Assembly: GCF_014653155.1 (NCBI RefSeq)
Contig: NZ_BNAF01000004.1
Span: 1-64,000 of the forward strand
DNA from: Sphingobacterium griseoflavum
GTDB taxonomy: Bacteria > Bacteroidota > Bacteroidia > Sphingobacteriales > Sphingobacteriaceae
DNA length: 64,000 bases
Direction: 5' to 3'
Position 1 is the first letter of the stretch. Every line of letters begins with the position of its first letter. This document shows positions 1 through 59,524 of this stretch, one piece after another. The position numbers were made by a program, and so were the translations under genes. The notes under the pieces are model-generated. The model ran no database searches. It was not told where the DNA came from and saw only the letters and a list, made by a program, of their open reading frames with translations.

Positions 1-1
1 C

Positions 2-268
2 CTGAGAGAAGCCATGGATAAAGGCCGGGCCGAAGGCTTGGAGAAGGGGTTGGAGCAAGGCTTAGAGCAAGGTATGGAAAAGGGTATGGAGAAAGGATTG
101 GAACAAGGCTTAGAGCAAGGATTGGAGCATGGCTTAGAGCAAGGTACACACAGAAAGGCGATTGCGATTGCAACCACCATGAAGAAAAGTGGCATTTCTG
201 CCGAAGATATTGCTATCTATACGGGTCTTTCCCTTGCTGATATCGAGGCACTGAGCAGTGGTAAGTAA
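2..268 (+). CDS. Rpn-family nuclease/putative transposase, 3' end only
   Basis: This is the C-terminal end of a gene that begins before the window; the frame is already open at base 2. The peptide is a run of four-residue G-[LM]-E-[KQH] repeats (about nine) followed by a conserved tail (HRKAIAIATTMKKSGISAED... ending SLADIEALSSGK). The tail is almost identical to the tail of the complete Rpn-family protein at 6093-7139, and the DNA similarity continues past the stop codon into the following repeat. In the complete copy this tail follows a PD-(D/E)XK nuclease domain; that domain is not visible here because of the window edge. The repeat run is three units longer than in the complete copy, consistent with slippage in 12-bp units. 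Whether the upstream part is intact cannot be judged. Confidence 0.8.
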   Translation: MREAMDKGRAEGLEKGLEQGLEQGMEKGMEKGLEQGLEQGLEHGLEQGTHRKAIAIATTMKKSGISAEDIAIYTGLSLADIEALSSGK

Positions 269-295
269 TATGTAGTGCGAGGCATCGCGCTATTT

Positions 296-600
296 GCTTC
301 CGCGGGGTTGCTGCTCGACTCTTCGGTAGCTTCCCCTCCCATAAACCCTTCCGCCGCTCGCCGCGGCAAGGCATCACTTTTGAAGGTCAAAAGTGATCAA
401 AAGCCTTTGTCTCCTTGAGGTGCTCTGTCGCACAGGTCCGCCCTGCGCAAAGCACCCTGTTTGGCCGAAGCCGGAATAACGCCGCCATCGCTTTGTATGC
501 GATGTCGACATGATTCCATGCTTGCCCTGCCCTCGAAAACCCCCAAACATGCTCTTTGCCAGCCAGCACTGTTAAGGAGACCTAAAAGTTCCGTCGCACG
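296..600 (+). repeat. Dispersed repeat A, copy 1
   Basis: First of five similar copies. The core from 351 to 600 is 250 bp. It contains a 10-bp hairpin ATCACTTTTG-N5-CAAAAGTGAT, a GGTGCT...AGCACC inverted repeat enclosing an imperfect GC-rich stem, and the palindrome ATGTCGACAT. It directly follows the Rpn fragment, as copy 5 follows the complete Rpn gene. Open frames on both strands (for example 387-569 and 461-688) recur in other copies but break at different points, so I treat the element as non-coding. Confidence 0.85.
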
Positions 601-605
601 GTATT

Positions 606-736
606 CTTTATATTTCAGTTATCGTTCGCTATCTTACAATAATGCGATAGTCAGCGATACGCTCACTATCGCTTCTGCCTTTTATTAACAGCAATGTCGC
701 ATCATTTTTGTTGCGTCTGTATAAACTTGCCTTTTC
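606..736 (+). repeat. Dispersed repeat B, copy 1 (short form)
   Basis: This follows A1. It has the recurring TATCGTTCGCTAT motif, then the CGCTCACTATCGCTTCTGCC segment, then GCATCATTTTTGTTGCGTCTGT. It lacks the internal TCACTTTATCAC-rich stretch found in longer B copies. No coding potential was recognised. Confidence 0.7.
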
Positions 737-793
737 GCTGACGTGCGCTTGCTGCCTGTGCTATTGGAACTATTCCCCTTCCCGCAAACCCTT

Positions 794-1043
794 CCGCCGC
801 TCGCCGCGGCAGGGCATCACTTTTGAATGCCAAAAGTGATCAAAAGCCTTTGTCTCCTTGAGGTGCTTCGTCGCACAGGTCCGCCCTGCGCAAAGCACCC
901 TGTTTGGCCGAAGCCGGAATAACACCGCCATCGCTTTGGATGCGATGCCGACATGATTCCATGCTTGCCCTGCCCTCGGGAACCCCCAAACATGCTCTTT
1001 GCCAGCCAGCACGGGCAAGGAGACCTAAAAGTTCCGTCGCACG
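794..1043 (+). repeat. Dispersed repeat A, copy 2
   Basis: A 250-bp core in the same orientation as copy 1. The ATCACTTTTG/CAAAAGTGAT stem is intact although its loop differs (AATGC instead of AAGGC or AAGGT). The ATGTCGACAT palindrome is mutated to ATGCCGACAT. Confidence 0.85.
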
Positions 1044-1308
1044 GCGTCTTTTATCAAACGGCTATCGTTCGCTATCTTACAGTATTGCGATCTTAAGAAG
1101 ATACCCCAGTCATTGCACGTCACTTTCTCACCCTCTCACTTTCTCACTTTATCACCTTTTCACTTCTTCACTCAAGGCACAATAGCTTTAGCATAACGCG
1201 AAAATCAGCAATACGCTCACTATCGCTTCTGCCCATCATTAACAGCAATGTCGCATCATTTTTGTTGCGTCTGTATAAACCTGCCTATGCACTGCCCCAT
1301 AAGGATGC
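1044..1308 (+). repeat. Dispersed repeat B, copy 2
   Basis: This begins with GGCTATCGTTCGCTATC, passes AAGAAGATACCCCAG, then a degenerate minisatellite of TCACTTTATCAC-like units (1125-1170), then the CGCTCACTATCGCTTCTGCC segment and GCCCCATAAGGATGCA. The same order of blocks occurs in copies 3 and 4. Confidence 0.8.
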
Positions 1309-1616
1309 ATGTCGCTTCCGCGGGGTTGCTGCTCGACCCTTCGGCAGCATCCCCCCCCCTCAATTCCTTCCGCCGCTCGCCGCGGCAGGGCATCACTTTT
1401 GAAGGCCAAAAGTGATCAAAAGCCTTTGTCTCCTTGAGGTGCTTCGTCGCACAGGTCCGCCCTGCGCAAAGCACCCTGTTTGGCCGAAGCCGGAATAACG
1501 CCGCCATCGCCTTGGATGCGATGTCGACATGATTCCATGCTTGCCCTGCCCGCGGACCCCAAACATGCTCTTTGCCAGCCAGCACTTGCAAGGAGACCTA
1601 AAAGTTCCGTTACACG
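1309..1616 (+). repeat. Dispersed repeat A, copy 3
   Basis: The 5' extension (CTTCCGCGGGGTTGCTGCTCG) is shared with copy 1; the core is 1370-1616. The ATCACTTTTG-AAGGC-CAAAAGTGAT hairpin and the ATGTCGACAT palindrome are intact. Same orientation as all other copies. Confidence 0.85.
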
Positions 1617-1880
1617 ATGTTCTTTATTTTTCAGTTATCGTTCGCTATTTAAACTAATGCGATCTTAAGAATATACCCCAGTTATTGCACGTCACTTTAT
1701 AACGGTGTCACTTCATCACTATATCACCCTTTCACGTCTTCACTCAAGGCACAATAGCCTTAGCATAACGCGATAATCAGCAGCACGCTCACTATCGCTT
1801 CTGCCTTTTATTAACAGCAATGTCGCATCATTTTTGTTGCGTCTGTAGAGACTTGCCTATGCACTACCCCACAAGGATGC
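1617..1880 (+). repeat. Dispersed repeat B, copy 3
   Basis: Full-length B element with an internal stretch of TCACTTTATAAC/TATCACC-like units. It leads directly into tandem array C1, as copy 4 leads into C2. Confidence 0.8.
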
Positions 1881-2214
1881 AACAAAAATAAGCGACGGGG
1901 TTTTGGTTACTTTTGCCCTACAAAAGTAACGCCCCCGTCCCGGGCTTAGGGACAAACCAGTCCCGGCGAGGGACAAAAGATATTAGGGTTAATGAGTATT
2001 GTGGTATTGCGATACGGCAGCCTATTATCTGCGGTGGCAGCAAAACCTTTCAAAAGTAACGCCCCCGTCCCGGGCTTAGGGACAAACCAGTCCCGGCGAG
2101 GGACAAAAGATATTAGGGTTAATGAGTATTGTGGTATTGCGATACGGCAGCCTATTATCTGCGGTGGCAGCAAAACCTTTCAAAAGTAACGCCCCTGTCC
2201 CGGGCTTAGGGACA
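1881..2214 (+). repeat. Tandem repeat array C1, 130-bp period
   Basis: After a leader (ACAAAAATAAGCGACGGGG) comes the hairpin GTTACTTTTG-CCCTA-CAAAAGTAAC (1906-1930). Units start at 1921, 2051 and 2181 (the last partial), a period of 130 bp; the first two units look identical. Each unit opens with CAAAAGTAACGCCCC and carries two adjacent small hairpins, GTCCC-GGGCTTA-GGGAC and GTCCC-GGCGA-GGGAC, then about 75 bp of unique sequence. The array ends about 75 bp before hchA. Confidence 0.9.
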
Positions 2215-2239
2215 ATCCGCTTCCGCTAAAGTTTGGCCA

Positions 2240-2247
2240 TATCTTTG
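2240..2247 (+). promoter_or_regulatory. Possible -7 element of hchA promoter
   Basis: TATCTTTG matches the Bacteroidota TAnnTTTG -7 box and lies 41 bp before the hchA start, just outside repeat array C1. No clear TTTG was found at the -33 position, so the call is weak. Confidence 0.35.
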
Positions 2248-2288
2248 CGTGATAATTAGCGAAATTACATACATTAAAACGAAATATT

Positions 2289-3137
2289 ATGGCACAAGCA
2301 TTAAGCAAAGAACCCGTTTTTGACGGAATAGGCTACGAGCCTTCTCCATTTTCGAGGTCGGAATTCGTTACGGCGAAAACCGATTATGACCACACCGTCT
2401 ATGAAGGGGCGAACACCGATAAGAACAAAAAGATATTGGTTGTATGTACCGAGCAACGCTACATGACCATGCAGAATGGGAAGAAATTCTCGACGGGCAA
2501 CCATCCAGTGGAAACGTTGGTTCCTATGCTGCACCTGCAGGCGGCGGGATTTGATTTTGACATCTACACCCCGACGGGCGCGGCGGTAGCGCTGGAAATG
2601 TGGGCGATGCCCGAAGAAGACGAAGCGGTGAAAAGCATATTGGAGCAGTATCGTTCGCAGTTCGAGCAACCCAAAAGTTTGCACCATTTTGTGGCGAATG
2701 GCTTGCAGTCTGCAGCAGAATATGTCGCCGTATTCCTGCCCGGTGGCCATGGAGCCATGTTGGGACTGCCGGAAAGCGAAGATTTGAACAAAGTAATCCA
2801 TTGGAGCGTGGAGCAGGATATTTACATGTTGGCCATCTGCCACGGTCCTGCCGCTTTGCTGGCTGCGGCGCAGGGGGATTCTGCCAGCTTCCCCTATGCG
2901 GGATATCAGATCACCTCGTTTCCTGATGCCCTCGATAGGCAAACGCCAGCAATCGGTTATGTTCCTGGAGAAATGCCTTGGTTTTATGGCGAAAAGCTGC
3001 AGAAATTAGGCGTCGAAATTTTAAACGAAGATATATCCGGCGCCTGCCACACCGACCGGAAGCTGGTGACCGGCGACAGCCCTTTGGCCGCCAATAATTT
3101 TGGGAAAATGAGCGCGCAGGTTTTGCTGGGCAGCTAA
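2289..3137 (+). CDS. hchA: DJ-1/PfpI superfamily protein Hsp31 (glyoxalase III / protein deglycase)
   Basis: The protein has 282 residues, almost the length of E. coli Hsp31 (283), and aligns with it throughout from memory: STGNHPVETL near residue 68, PGGHGAMLGLPES near 151, the nucleophile elbow AICHGPAA with Cys184-His185, FPDA.DRQTP near 211, and the C-terminal DRKLVTGDSPLAAN. Glu75, Cys184-His185 and Asp213 correspond to the family's catalytic set. Known members are cytosolic, convert methylglyoxal to D-lactate without glutathione and have holdase chaperone activity. The ATG at 2289 follows an A-rich leader. The gene stands alone between repeat array C1 and the convergent DUF4394 gene. 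Assignment to the Hsp31 branch is firm; the physiological role is by homology. Confidence 0.93.
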   Translation: MAQALSKEPVFDGIGYEPSPFSRSEFVTAKTDYDHTVYEGANTDKNKKILVVCTEQRYMTMQNGKKFSTGNHPVETLVPMLHLQAAGFDFDIYTPTGAAVALEMWAMPEEDEAVKSILEQYRSQFEQPKSLHHFVANGLQSAAEYVAVFLPGGHGAMLGLPESEDLNKVIHWSVEQDIYMLAICHGPAALLAAAQGDSASFPYAGYQITSFPDALDRQTPAIGYVPGEMPWFYGEKLQKLGVEILNEDISGACHTDRKLVTGDSPLAANNFGKMSAQVLLGS

Positions 3138-3150
3138 AAATATGCCGCGT

Positions 3151-3196
3151 TGCATAGCGATAAATGAGCGCCCGCGCGTTAACTAATCGCTATGCA
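3151..3196. repeat. Perfect inverted repeat downstream of hchA
   Basis: TGCATAGCGAT (3151-3161) is matched exactly by ATCGCTATGCA (3186-3196) across a 24-nt spacer. There is no T-run after it, so it is not a typical intrinsic terminator. The rest of 3138-3429 shows no convincing gene. Confidence 0.6.
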
Positions 3197-3363
3197 TCTT
3201 GATGTCTGGCAATCTTTTGTCGTGTCGGCGAAGCGGAACATTGCAGCTCGACCCATGCTGTTGGATGTTGACGATGTTTAGGCACCCCACCTAATTTTAA
3301 TAAATGGATATAATTGTCCGATAGTAAGCACAAAAATATCATCCAGGATCTATGTGGGTGGCT

Positions 3364-3400
3364 AGATAAAAAAGGGGACATCTTGACGACGTCCCCTTTT
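3364..3400 (-). terminator. Intrinsic terminator of the DUF4394 gene
   Basis: The stem AAAAGGGGAC/GTCCCCTTTT (3370-3379 with 3391-3400) has an 11-nt loop. On the minus strand it is followed by a T-rich tract, 30 bp after the DUF4394 stop. Confidence 0.85.
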
Positions 3401-3429
3401 GGGATGATTATTTATTAAGAACAAAGCTT

Positions 3430-4941
3430 TTAAAAACCTAAACCCACGCTGAATCCTGTAACGCCTACAGCAATATCACGCATGGCAGTGGCCGCACCGG
3501 TGGTGGTGTTCACTTGGTAAAGTTTAGTGCTAGAGCCCACGGTACCGATTAAATAGGCATGGCCGCTTTTGCTACCGATATCGAAGCCATTGGAAGCGGT
3601 TAGCGTGATGCCAAGCGCGCCAACTGGAGCCAGCGTACCATCATTAGGCGGTACTTGCGTGTAAAGCATACTGGTAGCATGGTCTAGTACAAGTAATGTT
3701 GTGCTGCTTGTGCCGGCCACATTATTGGTGTAGGCCGCTGCGCTTACGGATGGGCTACCTGGATTCAAGATGCCATCGATACCGACTACAAGACCAGTAG
3801 TGGGGTTCACGCGTAGGTTTTGGCCCGTGTTGCTAACCACACGGATAAGATCTACAGCAGGATTGAAGTCGAACCCGAAGCTCGTGCCCGCCAAGACGGG
3901 AAACATAGGAATCGTGCCGATACGCGTTGCGGCGCCCGAGCTTAGATTGATGGTGTACAGACGGCTGCTGCTGCCCAGTGCATATAGTTGTCCCGTTGCC
4001 GGGCGAAAATCGATACCCAACACAGTCTCGCCATCGGCCATGCCTGCAATAGCCTTACTGACCGATCCGTCTTTCATTGGATTCATGATGTGCAGGTTAT
4101 TGCTGGCATCAACTGCATAGGCAACAGGGTCTGTCGGAATAGCCAAATCGATCAAAGGTGCTGCGATCCGACCGATCTTGTCGGCATGGCCACTTTCTAG
4201 ATTAACCATATACAAAGCATGCTCATTTTGGCTATGCGCCGCAATAAGGGCCGCTTTGTTATCTGGGCTGATGTCGAACGCGACCTGTCCGCTAACCGAC
4301 ATGCCTAGGCTGCCCACTTCAACAAGTTTACCGTCATTCGGCGGATCCTGTTTGAAAAGTTTGCCCGAAGTAGCATCGATGTCATAAAGGGTTGTTGCAG
4401 AAGCGCCTGCCACACTATTGGTGTAGGCAACGCCACTGATGCTCACCGCACTGCTATGGTTGATGTCCATATCCTCGGCCGCCAAGGCGCCCGTTTCAGG
4501 ATGCAAGCGTAGGTTTTGCCCGGTGTTGCTGACCAAGCGAACGCGGTCTACCGTAGGATTGAAATCGATGGAGGCAAATGTACCCTCGATAGCAGGAGCG
4601 AAGCTCGCCGAGCCCACAACCTGTGCTTGGGCAGATGTCGTATGTATGCGGTATAGCTTGCTGGCATTGGATAGTGCGTACAGCTCTCCGGTGGCGGGAC
4701 GGAAATCGATGCTCATCAATTTCTCTCCAGAACCGAGTCCTTGGATCGCCGTGGTGCTTTCGAAGCTGCTTGGACGATTGGCGTTGAAGGCTACCAGCTC
4801 GTTGTTGGCTGTTAACCCATACACCATAAGGTCAGGTCCCTGCATGTCGCCGCCCATGTTGTCGTCGTCCGAGCACGAGGAGATGAGTGCCACGGCCGTG
4901 CATGCCAGCATAAATTTTGTTAGTGTTTGTTTTAAATTCAT
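3430..4941 (-). CDS. DUF4394 domain lipoprotein with two tandem DUF4394 halves
   Basis: 503 residues. The N-terminus is a lipoprotein signal with Cys23 (ALISSC) followed by SDDD, an acidic sequence resembling the Bacteroidota surface-export signal, so outer-surface display is likely. The rest is two homologous halves: residues about 40-265 and 275-503 both contain IDFRPATG.LYAL, FDFNP/IDFNP..D..R.VSNTGQNLR, AYTN.VAG.S.TTLY/L and PPNDG.L..VG.LG. This is the DUF4394 signature, thought to form a beta-propeller-like fold. The function is unknown; the repeated hits to "relation to default values" resemble proteins that bind sugars or act as structural surface proteins, but nothing here shows which. 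Single-gene unit with its own terminator at 3364-3400. Confidence 0.85.
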   Translation of the reverse strand: MNLKQTLTKFMLACTAVALISSCSDDDNMGGDMQGPDLMVYGLTANNELVAFNANRPSSFESTTAIQGLGSGEKLMSIDFRPATGELYALSNASKLYRIHTTSAQAQVVGSASFAPAIEGTFASIDFNPTVDRVRLVSNTGQNLRLHPETGALAAEDMDINHSSAVSISGVAYTNSVAGASATTLYDIDATSGKLFKQDPPNDGKLVEVGSLGMSVSGQVAFDISPDNKAALIAAHSQNEHALYMVNLESGHADKIGRIAAPLIDLAIPTDPVAYAVDASNNLHIMNPMKDGSVSKAIAGMADGETVLGIDFRPATGQLYALGSSSRLYTINLSSGAATRIGTIPMFPVLAGTSFGFDFNPAVDLIRVVSNTGQNLRVNPTTGLVVGIDGILNPGSPSVSAAAYTNNVAGTSSTTLLVLDHATSMLYTQVPPNDGTLAPVGALGITLTASNGFDIGSKSGHAYLIGTVGSSTKLYQVNTTTGAATAMRDIAVGVTGFSVGLGF

Positions 4942-5051
4942 AGTTTCAATTTGAAAAATTTATGATTATTAATTTTGTTTTCATTACTAATCGTCTATCT
5001 CACAGATTAGTTTTAAGAAAATGAAATTTAGGTGTTGTAACTTGATTAGTT

Positions 5052-5359
5052 GTGTCGCACTTCGCTGGCGCGAGCTTGCGGCTCGCACCTTCGGGAAGTG
5101 CCATCCCTTCCGCCGCTCGCCGCGGCAGGGCATCACTTTTGAAGGCCAAAAGTGATCAAAAGCCTTTGTCTCCTTGAGGTGCTCTGTCGCACGAGTCCGC
5201 CCTGCGCAAAGCACCCTGTTTGGCCGAAGCCGGAATAACGCCGCCATCGCTTTGGATGCGATGTCGACATGATTCCATGCTTGCCCTGCCCTCGGAAACC
5301 TCCAAACATGTTCTTTGCCAGCCAGCACTTGTAAGGAGACCTAAAAGTTCCGTCACACG
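5052..5359 (+). repeat. Dispersed repeat A, copy 4
   Basis: The 5' extension differs from copies 1 and 3 (GCGCGAGCTTGCGGCTCGCACC, itself a GC-rich inverted repeat); the core is 5110-5359. The ATCACTTTTG-AAGGC-CAAAAGTGAT hairpin and ATGTCGACAT palindrome are intact. It lies upstream of the DUF4394 start. Confidence 0.85.
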
Positions 5360-5610
5360 CTTTCCTTAATTAAAAGGCTATTGTTCGCTATCGTACAGTA
5401 TTGCGATCTTAAGAAGATACCCCAGTTATCGCACGTCACTTTATCACTTTATCACCTTTTCACTTCTTCACCCAACGTGCAATATCTTTAGCATAGTGCG
5501 AAAACCAGCAGCACGCTCACTATCGCTTCTGCCCATCATTAACGGTAATGTCGCATCATTTTTGTTGCGTCTGTAGAGACTTGCCCATGCACTGCCCCAT
5601 AAGGATGCAA
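5360..5610 (+). repeat. Dispersed repeat B, copy 4
   Basis: Same block order as copies 2 and 3: GGCTATTGTTCGCTATC, AAGAAGATACCCCAG, a short TCACTTTATCAC tract, CGCTCACTATCGCTTCTGCC, and GCCCCATAAGGATGCA leading into array C2. Confidence 0.8.
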
Positions 5611-5975
5611 CAAAAATCAGCGACGGGGTTTTGGTTACTTTTGCCCTACAAAAGTAACGCCCCTGTCCCGGGCTTAGGGACGCCCAGTCCCGGCGAGGGA
5701 CATAAGCGTGTTGGTCATGCATATTGGTTATGGCGATATGGCTACCGATTATTTGCGGCGGCAGCTCAACTTTTGCCCCACAAAAGTAACGCCCCTGTCC
5801 CGGGCTTAGGGACGCCCAGTCCCGGCGAGGGACATAAGCGTGTTGGTCATGCATATTGGTTATGGCGATATGGCTACCGATTATTTGCGGCGGCAGCTCA
5901 ACTTTTGCCCCACAAAAGTAACGCCCCTGTCCCGGGCTTAGAGACAAACCAGTCCGGCGAGGGACATAAACGTAT
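5611..5975 (+). repeat. Tandem repeat array C2, 132-bp period
   Basis: Leader ACAAAAATCAGCGACGGGG, then the hairpin GTTACTTTTG-CCCTA-CAAAAGTAAC (5634-5658). Units start at 5649, 5781 and 5913, a period of 132 bp; the first two look identical and the third is partial and diverged. The paired GTCCC/GGGAC hairpins are conserved relative to C1, while the middle of the unit is different sequence. Because 132 is a multiple of three, an artefactual repeated reading frame appears on the minus strand (5468-5947). The array is about 115 bp upstream of the complete Rpn gene. Confidence 0.9.
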
Positions 5976-6092
5976 GGGTCATGGCAACATAACTACCGAT
6001 GATAAACATTTATAATCGTATATAAACATTTAACAACCGACTATTACCGAGCAACCTCTTTAACTTAGCCCCTGAAACCAATTTACACATAC

Positions 6093-7139
6093 ATGGATGC
6101 GCACAGGTACATCGATTTGACGACGGATTTCGGCTTCAAGCGGATCTTCGGGTCGGAGGCCAACAAACCTTTTTTAAAGGCCTTCTTGAACGAGCTGTTC
6201 CAGGGCCGCCTGCAGATCGCGGACCTGCAGTACGGCAGGAACGAGCACGTGGGCGATACGGTGGAGATGGGTACGGTGATCTTCGACCTGCTGTGCAGCA
6301 CGGAGGCGGGCGAGCATTTCCTGATCGAGGTGCAGCGCAGCACGCACCTGAACCTGAAGCGGCGGATGCTGTACTACGGCAGCAAGCTGATCGCCGATTC
6401 GGCACCCCGCGGCCAGCGCCGGAGCTGGGACTACGCGATCAGCGCGGTATACGTGGTCGTGCTGCTGGACGGCTTCCCGATCCCCGGCGGAGGGAGCGGC
6501 GCGGATTACCTGCAGGAGATCTGCCTGTGCAACCGTCGCACGGGCGAAGTTTTTTACGAGGAGATGGCGTACCTGTACGTGGAATTGGTTAAATTTGTGA
6601 AGCAAGGGGCTGATCTGCAGAGCGATCTGGACCGTTGGCTGTACGTGCTGAAGAACATGTCCAAGCTGGACGGTCTTCCGGTGCACCTGCGGCAGCCCAT
6701 CTTTGAGCAGCTGTTCGAGATAGCTGCCTACACGCAACTGAACAAGGAGGAACGCCATATGTATGATGTAAGTTTGAAACGCAAGTGGGATGCCGCAGTC
6801 GTGCGGAAATACCAGGAACAGGAGCAGGCAAAAACCAGGGAGGCCCTGAAAGCTGCGGAAGCCGCCCTAAAAGCTGCCGAGGCTGCCGAAGAAGCCCTCG
6901 TAACAGGCCTGAAAGAAGCCATGGATAAAGGCTTGATCGAAGGATTGGAAAAGGGTTTAGAAAAGGGTTTAGAACAGGGTTTGGAGCAAGGATTGGAGCA
7001 TGGCTTAGAGCAAGGTGCACACAGAAAGGCGATTGCTATTGCCACCACCATGAAGAAAAGTGGCATTTCTGCCGAAGATATTGCTATCTATACGGGTCTA
7101 TCCCTTGCTGATATCGAGGCGCTGAGCACTAGCAAGTAA
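6093..7139 (+). CDS. Rpn-family recombination-promoting nuclease / putative transposase
   Basis: 348 residues. Residues 1-230 match the Rpn/PDDEXK_2 family, starting with the typical TDFGFKRIFG; candidate catalytic residues are Asp65 (VIFDLL) and Glu79/Gln81 (LIEVQ). A heptad-like Ala/Glu coiled segment follows (about 240-275), then six G-L-E-[KQH] tetrapeptides and a conserved tail. Known Rpn proteins are cytoplasmic DNA endonucleases that stimulate recA-independent recombination; their C-terminal low-complexity and tail regions vary rapidly and have been linked to phage defence. The first 500 bp use mostly G/C-ending codons, then composition drops to the local level near 6580, suggesting a mosaic or transferred N-terminal half. 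Flanked by array C2 and repeat A5. Confidence 0.9.
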   Translation: MDAHRYIDLTTDFGFKRIFGSEANKPFLKAFLNELFQGRLQIADLQYGRNEHVGDTVEMGTVIFDLLCSTEAGEHFLIEVQRSTHLNLKRRMLYYGSKLIADSAPRGQRRSWDYAISAVYVVVLLDGFPIPGGGSGADYLQEICLCNRRTGEVFYEEMAYLYVELVKFVKQGADLQSDLDRWLYVLKNMSKLDGLPVHLRQPIFEQLFEIAAYTQLNKEERHMYDVSLKRKWDAAVVRKYQEQEQAKTREALKAAEAALKAAEAAEEALVTGLKEAMDKGLIEGLEKGLEKGLEQGLEQGLEHGLEQGAHRKAIAIATTMKKSGISAEDIAIYTGLSLADIEALSTSK

Positions 7140-7149
7140 TATGTAGTGC

Positions 7150-7467
7150 GAGGCATCGCGCTACTCGCTTCCGCGGGGATGCGGCTCGCACCTTCGGGGG
7201 CTTCCTTCCCCAATCCCTTTCGCCGCTCGCCGCGGCAGGGCACCACTTTTGAAGGCCAAAAGTGATCAAAAGCCTTTGTCTCCTTGAGGTGCTCTGTCGC
7301 ACAGGTCGCCCTGCGCAAAGCACCCTGTTTGGCCGAAGCCGGAATAACGCCGCCATCGCTTTGGATGCGATGTCGACATGATTCCATGCTTGCCCTGCCC
7401 TCGAGACCCCCAAACATGCTCTTTGCCAGCCAGCACTTGCAAGGAGACCTAAGAGTTCCGTCACACG
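7150..7467 (+). repeat. Dispersed repeat A, copy 5
   Basis: This follows the complete Rpn gene exactly as copy 1 follows the Rpn fragment at the window start; similarity between the two loci runs from the Rpn tail through this core (7220-7467). The hairpin and ATGTCGACAT palindrome are intact. Confidence 0.85.
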
Positions 7468-7690
7468 CTATCCCTTATCTAAAAGGTTATACGTTCGCTA
7501 TCGTACAGTATTGCGATCTCAAGAAGATACCCCAGTTATTAGTCACTTTATAACGTTGTCACTTTATGACCTTATCACTTTATAACGGTGTCACTTTATA
7601 ACGGTGTCACTTTATCACGGTGTCACTTTATCACCATATCACCATATCACCTTATCACTTTATAACGGTGTCCCTTTATCACTTAACCTT
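7468..7690 (+). repeat. Repeat B, copy 5, expanded into a degenerate minisatellite
   Basis: It begins like the other B copies (GTTCGCTATCGTACAGTATTGCGATC, AAGAAGATACCCC), but from about 7544 it becomes a run of 10-14 bp units of the form GGTGTCACTTTAT[AC]AC and CATATCACC. The other end of a B element is missing. The run stops a few bases before the stop codon of the DUF3857 gene. Confidence 0.8.
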
Positions 7691-36179: not shown

Positions 36180-36297
36180 TTTTTAGCCCTATAACTCTCT
36201 AACTTGCTAACCTTCTAACCCTTTAACCTTCTAACCCCTTAACCTTCTAACCTTATAACCTCTTAACCTTCCAACCCTTTAACCTTCTTCGATCTCC
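36180..36297 (+). repeat. Telomere-like degenerate repeat of TTCTAACC/TTTAACC units
   Basis: About 118 bp made of 8-9 bp units such as CTAACCTTC, TAACCCTTT and TAACCTTA. The G residue is nearly absent from this strand, giving extreme strand asymmetry. It lies between two transcription units with no coding role. Confidence 0.85.
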
Positions 36298-54453: not shown

Positions 54454-54490
54454 CACAAAAAAAGCCCAATCTTTCGATTGAGCTTTTTTG
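54454..54490 (-). terminator. Terminator of the first tRNA-Lys gene
   Basis: On the minus strand the tRNA is followed by AGCTCAATC-GAAA-GATTGGGCT and TTTTTTTG. A second copy of this terminator lies at 59284-59320. Confidence 0.85.
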
Positions 54491-54563
54491 TGATCCCGCT
54501 GGGATTCGAACCCAGGACCCATACATTAAAAGTGTATTGCTCTACCAGCTGAGCTACGGAATC
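54491..54563 (-). tRNA. tRNA-Lys (UUU), first copy
   Basis: 73 nt. Acceptor GATTCCG/CGGGATC, D arm AGCTCAGCTGGTAGAGC, anticodon loop CTTTTAA (anticodon UUU), variable loop, T arm CTGGG-TTCGAAT-CCCAG and discriminator A. CCA is not encoded. All stems pair. Confidence 0.95.
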
Positions 54564-59448: not shown

Positions 59449-59451
59449 CCG

Positions 59452-59524
59452 TGATCCCGCTGGGATTCGAACCCAGGACCCATACATTAAAAGTGTATTG
59501 CTCTACCAGCTGAGCTACGGAATC
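59452..59524 (-). tRNA. tRNA-Lys (UUU), second copy
   Basis: 73 nt, identical to the copy at 54491-54563 along its whole length, with the same anticodon loop CTTTTAA. It has its own distinct terminator. Confidence 0.95.

Follow-up and report, generated by a model that had tools for sequence, protein, structure and literature searches.

Pneumococcal BOX repeats are built from three modules, boxA, boxB and boxC. A modular A-B-C plan of this intergenic kind (PMC3049150) also describes a repeat that we analysed in the draft genome of Sphingobacterium griseoflavum (G000; 4.42 Mb in 26 contigs), where modules here called A, B and C stand among genes for Rpn nucleases in the first 7.7 kb of a 64,000-nt stretch ("the window") at the start of contig C4 (345 kb); BOX was compared by description only, and the present repeat differs from it in that C, with the final part of B, resembles a relative of A in inverted orientation. 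Throughout, other G numbers denote comparison genomes, L numbers extracted loci, and C4, C7, C8, C19 and C20 contigs of G000, which are distinct from repeat module C; papers are cited for the accessible parts of their texts. Repetitive extragenic palindromes (REPs) and bacterial interspersed mosaic elements (BIMEs) share with this repeat extragenic palindromic units, alternating orientation and tandem arrays, which often flank a transposase gene (PMC2817692), but REPs measure 20-40 bp (PMC3733652) whereas A has ~220 nt and a covarying rod, G000 has no Y1 transposase, and the gene embedded in the arrays is Rpn, which is dispensable across the family. Enterobacterial repetitive intergenic consensus (ERIC) sequences are likewise long imperfect palindromes, with copies in E. 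coli and Y. pestis (PMC2267715); by general plan, the only level at which the two were compared, they differ in being ~127 bp rather than ~220, and A also forms inverted pairs and tandem arrays. The BrickBuilt miniature inverted-repeat transposable element (MITE) of Porphyromonas gingivalis, from the same phylum, is intergenic and modular, with ~19 copies, tandem units and inverted ends (PMC4596501), but its tandem unit is 23 nt and it belongs to one species (again compared by description only). Multi-copy rpn genes with variable four-residue C-terminal repeats have been reported as well (PMC10327210); the accessible text of that paper finds no identifiable inverted terminal repeats beside rpn and explains the arrays by tandem duplication, whereas here Rpn lies between modules. 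Bacteroidota go unmentioned in the searched text of PMC2267715 and PMC2817692, and PMC3733652 notes REPs there. Neither Rfam nor the literature searched, from which subscription papers were mostly absent, yielded a description of this repeat family or of such a layout, in keeping with the original prediction that no described element has it, and the family is apparently undescribed.

Our best reading is that the repeat comes nearest to a BIME- or ERIC-like family that acts as homology for rearrangement, with Rpn as a passenger. Stated in full, A would be an intergenic repeat family of Sphingobacteriaceae whose structure is under selection, whose inverted pairs give rise to arrays, which offers homology for ordinary recombination, and in which Rpn is carried along; we give this explanation as a whole a probability of roughly 65%.

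The structure of A is shown by covariation between genomes. It is an element of ~220 nt, with short hairpins and a long imperfect rod, that aligns over ~255 bp in 24 copies and is represented by 218 positions in our covariance model, R1. From the 24 G000 copies alone the rod is predicted, with 1 of 68 pairs changing on both sides, too few changes for a test. When an alignment of 16 copies from six genomes (A5) was given to RNAalifold with no structure, it folded into 43 pairs, 20 of them with compensatory changes, at an energy of -28.3 against a column-shuffle mean of -1.8 (standard deviation 1.6, 60 shuffles); the other strand gave -33.2 against a mean of -4.7 (standard deviation 2.7, 60 shuffles). 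A second alignment (A4; 17 copies from four genomes, the count including L053, a poor partial copy), examined with a structure derived from the G000 copies, had 92% of cells paired versus 36-48% in slid controls, and 17 of 66 pairs changing on both sides versus 4-7 for the slid controls. Selection on the short hairpins and long imperfect rod is part of the explanation to which we gave the joint probability above. A coding function was rejected, as the frames are interrupted by stops and shifted by indels whose lengths are frequently no multiple of three; with six frames summed over the 24 copies only 8 copy-frame combinations are stop-free, so that the original prediction of no shared open frame, which we checked for A only, held. 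Copies in G000 are 90-97% alike and those of comparison genome G006 are 90-95% alike among themselves, while G006 copies are 80-83% alike to those of G000; conversion or renewed spread may keep copies alike within a genome.

The strong covariation would also fit a functional RNA, or a cis-regulatory element of neighbouring genes, that is kept by selection, as would the module sites common to G000 and G006. We consider this unlikely: the position of copies relative to neighbouring genes is inconsistent (convergent, tandem and divergent gaps, judged by eye), wobble counts (34 G-U versus 51 A-C cells) single out neither folding strand, and the element was undetected in 241 of the 301 family genomes. 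Nor is there an Rfam family to support it, as a search of Rfam 15 found only two tRNAs reaching the gathering score in the window and nothing reaching it in 14 element-bearing loci (best E-value 0.043, outside the element); a known RNA family was therefore rejected for want of any match in the window modules or the 14 loci.

The distribution of A extends well beyond S. griseoflavum. BLAST found it in 7 of 93 genus genomes, G000 included, and R1 found it in 60 of 301 Sphingobacteriaceae genomes and 8 of 25 genera, with 15 positives in the genus (including the six genomes behind the model) and 45 in seven other genera; the positives do not include G007, where the match was weak. The R1 matches listed from other genera scored about 35-59 bits and were nearly all 190-280 nt long. 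Alignments were inspected individually only for the top matches of five genomes, which represent four genera outside this one; they show common motifs, e.g., ACUUUUG-AGG-CAAAAGU-aUCAAAA, together with the fold, and the rod matches loosely in parts. A scan of named genomes with a degenerate A pattern returned four records from two Sphingobacterium species (S. paludis and S. deserti) and six further records from other phyla that are probably chance. The work thus adds an apparently undescribed, structure-conserved repeat family in 8 of the 25 Sphingobacteriaceae genera sampled. As a separate observation, in the related genomes G121 and G029 (L237-L250), which lack PF12784, the element sits inside larger repeated stretches, and a region common to L238:1-1525 and L244:5466-6988 (93%) is oriented oppositely with respect to the element in these two loci.

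Within the first 7.7 kb of the window we found five A copies, four B copies (116 bp) and two C arrays, on a single strand and in the order A-B(-A-B)-C, with two Rpn genes. The original prediction of an Rpn-A-B and A-B-C layout was correct as to A, C, strand and order; its five B copies are four, the number five applying to a 49-bp box between A and B (repeat family D12; at 623, 1066, 1638, 5382 and 7492, two being only 63 and 69% alike), and the fifth A (7213-7465) is followed by the box and a 16-bp TCAC-rich tandem repeat, not by B-C. The A copies at 346, 789, 1363 and 7213 have 94-96% identity to the copy at 5100. The features are as follows.

1-268, plus strand: 3' end of an Rpn (PDDEXK_2) gene, the last 88 codons, truncated where the contig begins; BLAST match to the complete Rpn (6093-7139); TIGR01784 C-terminus with E 1.4e-6, below the model cut-off.
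346-598, plus strand: A copy 1, rod-hairpin repeat; 96% to the copy at 5100; R1 205 bits.
639-731, plus strand: B copy 1, by sequence match.
789-1041, plus strand: A copy 2, by sequence match; R1 202 bits.
1186-1300, plus strand: B copy 2, by sequence match.
1363-1614, plus strand: A copy 3, by sequence match; R1 204 bits.
1760-1871, plus strand: B copy 3, by sequence match.
1813-1932, minus strand: inverted, internally deleted apparent A relative spanning the B/C border; R1 31.7 bits, E 9e-8.
1873-2213, plus strand: C array 1, tandem repeat of period 130.
2289-3137, plus strand: glyoxalase III HchA gene between modules (cargo); NCBIfam NF003168, E 1.5e-114, above cut-off.
3430-4941, minus strand: DUF4394 gene between modules; Pfam PF14339; 87% to G006:4438742, a relative likewise between modules (L174 map).
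5100-5357, plus strand: A copy 4, the reference copy; R1 207.5 bits.
5382-5430, plus strand: 49-bp box between A and B; repeat family D12.
5485-5600, plus strand: B copy 4, by sequence match.
5600-5660, minus strand: apparent inverted A relative, 5' end, inside C; R1 28.6 bits, E 6.7e-7.
5600-5983, plus strand: C array 2, tandem repeat of period 132.
6093-7139, plus strand: complete Rpn gene, 348 aa; PF12784, E 3.2e-60; TIGR01784 above cut-off.
7213-7465, plus strand: A copy 5, by sequence match; R1 198 bits.
7542-7679, plus strand: 16-bp TCAC-rich tandem repeat in place of B-C.

Tandem repeats resembling TCACTTTATAACGGT, with periods of 8, 16 and 24, lie downstream of A copies (window 7542-7679, also 1120-1172).

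Genome-wide, G000 holds 24 A copies of at least 240 bp, far beyond chance, plus shorter pieces, and 29 matches each to B and C, arranged in 15 module clusters, seven of them no farther than 500 bp from an Rpn gene or a fragment of one. Each cluster is single-oriented, and to that extent the claim that the modules always share a strand was borne out; it fails between clusters, with four on the plus and two on the minus strand of contig C8, both orientations on C20, and opposite orientations within ~4 kb of each other in G006 (L171). Because such close clusters have opposite orientation, a replication-strand bias is unlikely (no dnaA was recognised by eye among open reading frames of at least 250 aa in the first 6 kb of the G006 contig). 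Contigs C4, C7, C8, C19 and C20 all end inside, or no more than 100 bp from, an Rpn gene or a module, so that copy numbers at those ends are unsafe, and the array at the window start is cut short because the contig ends there. In Sphingobacterium drafts generally, contig ends and Rpn copy numbers may be distorted by such arrays. The contig ends might also suggest an assembly artefact or collapsed repeat, but G006, a single-contig genome, has the same architecture and we give this reading next to no weight.

Inverted pairs provide a plausible origin for the A-B-C layout. On the minus strand of the window, R1 matches at both C arrays (1813-1932 and 5600-5660), so that C together with the final part of B resembles an A relative that has been inverted and has suffered deletion. 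Full inverted partners adjoin A in L165, L167, L168 and L173 of G006 (72-80 bits) and carry the same end hairpins as C, the inner hairpin being of a different subtype. G019 also has inverted pairs, and copies alternate fully in L235 of G177 and nearly so in L205 of G028, with a period of ~555-600 bp; the G028 arrays L204 and L206 are of mixed orientation. The alternation of REP/BIME arrays is therefore seen in G177 (L235) and G028 (L205), and in the window only in degenerate form. Given the minus-strand matches in C and the end of B, and the complete pairs elsewhere, we favour reading A-B-C as an inverted dimer that has degenerated through decay of its second half. In the sequence of events we propose, A would often occur as inverted pairs that expand into tandem arrays, and in G000 the second member of the pair would have decayed into C and the end of B, leaving the A-B-C layout; decay is probably the origin of these parts of B-C, the first part of B lying outside this account.

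We then asked how gene order behaves at modules, comparing C8, C19, C20 and parts of C4 and C7 with stretches of G006; left out of the count were open reading frames shorter than 130 aa, hits with less than 60% identity or covering less than half, duplicate claims, the Rpn gene itself, and any gap larger than 12 kb. Among 122 neighbouring mapped pairs, order was broken in 4 of 6 gaps with a module versus 2 of 116 gaps without one (Fisher p 2.5e-5). For example, on C8 the order jumps from 3.12 Mb to 4.42 Mb of G006 across a 3.9-kb gap that holds a module. A block with an OmpA-domain gene, PorP/SprF and a gene for 1955 aa is found in G000 between a glutaminase-A-like gene, accompanied by modules and an Rpn gene, and the next neighbour of that gene, and in G006 the same block adjoins CpsB/CapC, with a fragment of Rpn beside it. 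Modules are thus at recombination junctions more often than expected, and the module recombination events are few and linked. To that extent the suggested connection of the repeats with recombination is supported; as a rule, the link to Rpn that accompanied it is not. The near-identical modules would serve as homology for RecA-type exchange, which may move gene blocks between modules, Rpn included; we infer both homologous recombination as the process and the way in which new copies arise.

Several points weigh against the explanation that we prefer. Two of the four broken module gaps mark the two sides of a single inserted block, and a third, at C8:44.5 kb, is the place of the same block in G006 (~13 kb, only in G006 there), so that the four are not independent. 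Gene order is conserved across two of the six module gaps, and two breaks lack a module: one, C8:110951-111147, is a 198-bp gap in which no clear remnant was found, and the other is a stretch of ~12 kb more in G006. All of this comes from one genome pair, with the G006 stretches chosen near modules. As for the dimer, the B copies at 639 and 1186 give no R1 match as inverted A. One of five A4 shuffle measures, further pair types, was not above chance (104/500), the wobble counts given above favour neither strand, and the structure might also be due to selection for a role as RNA. Finally, R1 E-values are rough, and as the best seven candidates per genome were scored its copy numbers are lower bounds.

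The proposed tie to Rpn, i.e., that the repeats are substrates of these recombination-promoting nucleases or accompany them, did not survive as a rule. The complete window gene (6093-7139) is an Rpn / PDDEXK_2 by PF12784, which we found in 46 of 99 genomes searched, G000 included. It occurs in 10 of the 60 element-bearing genomes, nine of the ten in the genus, and 50 of the 60 lack it (PF04754-type Rpn was outside this search); within the genus, Rpn is in 5 of 8 element-bearing versus 37 of 52 other genomes, with no association (Fisher p 0.69; element-negative here means neither found by BLAST nor listed as R1-positive, the inclusion of each in the R1 search being uncertain). Arrays are present in G028 and G177, both without PF12784. 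The single Rpn gene of each of G049, G108 and G131 is more than 5 kb from any A copy; at a distance of roughly 5-7 kb from Rpn there are, in G049, a fragment of C and, in G108, pieces of B-C as well as a full-length copy of lower score (84.8 bits). Wide spread among genomes lacking PF12784 and clusters in both orientations are the observations that, by the terms of the original prediction, would remove the link. The element is therefore not dependent on Rpn.

The picture is different in G000 and G006, the only genomes in which Rpn was seen inside modules. Arrays contain all 5 Rpn genes or fragments of G000, one of which is a piece of just 27 bp at the end of a contig, and 4 of the 6 of G006, all of them pointing the same way as A. 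Such fixed placement would be expected if Rpn drove the arrays, the nuclease cutting in or beside modules so that arrays amplify and move around Rpn as REPs do around REP-associated tyrosine transposases (RAYTs). That part of the spacer after the Rpn stop recurs before A copies without Rpn points the same way, as does the increase in RecA-independent recombination caused by overexpressed E. coli Rpn proteins, for which the authors leave open specific sites in vivo (PMC5350276). Against this driving role stand the 50 genomes without PF12784, the arrays of G028 and G177, the lack of association in the genus, and the little, if any, sequence specificity in vitro of E. coli RpnA, a PF04754 protein and only a relative (PMC5350276), and we regard it as improbable. 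Still more speculative is a version limited to the clade of G000 and G006, in which Rpn would hold the place of a RAYT, cut at or near folded modules, amplify arrays and shuttle gene blocks, amounting to cassette exchange without an integrase; we would be surprised if it proved correct. We infer instead that Rpn is a passenger. At the N-glycanase/DoxX site Rpn is among the array parts in G006 while the G000 array is without Rpn, a pattern that fits a gene carried by exchange between modules. The Rpn copies of one genome (window 6093-7139; L035:7028-8134; L036:9883-10455) are, by eye, nearly identical except in the number of EKGL/EQGL-type four-residue repeats near the C-terminus, where variable repeats have been reported for multi-copy Rpn genes (PMC10327210). 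The repeat family offers a natural setting that brings together palindromic arrays, a nuclease family directed against phages and the rearrangement of gene blocks, and it allows gene deletion to test the old question of whether Rpn promotes recombination at particular sites.

A non-autonomous transposon, MITE- or BIME-like, with its hairpins recognised by some transposase, is compatible with the repeat-family explanation and would supply its missing step; we hold it tentatively, as a real but lesser possibility. Copies are dispersed, intergenic and in both orientations, they form inverted pairs, and singletons occur at unrelated sites in G049, G050, G108 and G131. Y1_Tnp is also more frequent in element-bearing genomes of the genus (8 of 15 versus 15 of 78 others, p 0.009; for strong matches only, 4 of 15 versus 8 of 78, p 0.10; element-negative genomes are defined as in the Rpn comparison, with the same uncertainty), but Y1_Tnp is lacking from G000, which has 24 copies, and from six more of the element-bearing genomes in the genus. 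Neither is the cognate RAYT of REP/BIME systems seen: 30 Y1_Tnp loci were free of the strict hairpin motif (the table omits ten, eight of them repeats of places already covered), and nine Y1_Tnp loci in element-bearing genomes hold no full copy, just one 15-bit match. We rejected RAYT/REP as the mover in G000 on these grounds, i.e., no Y1_Tnp gene there and no repeat beside such genes in relatives; a RAYT acting from elsewhere in the genome is possible in some relatives. No target duplication was evident in the flanks of 13 copies viewed by eye with no close strain pair, and no copies were found on plasmids, phages or viral contigs by sequence search with one query each (viral contigs by exact pattern). 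No mover, empty site or transcript was demonstrated for the element in this analysis.

Elsewhere in the window, an intergenic-looking array of 8/24-bp units resembling CTAACCTT and telomere-like in look occupies 36187-36288, and two tRNA-Lys (TTT) genes lie on the same strand ~5 kb apart, at 54490-54563 and 59451-59524.

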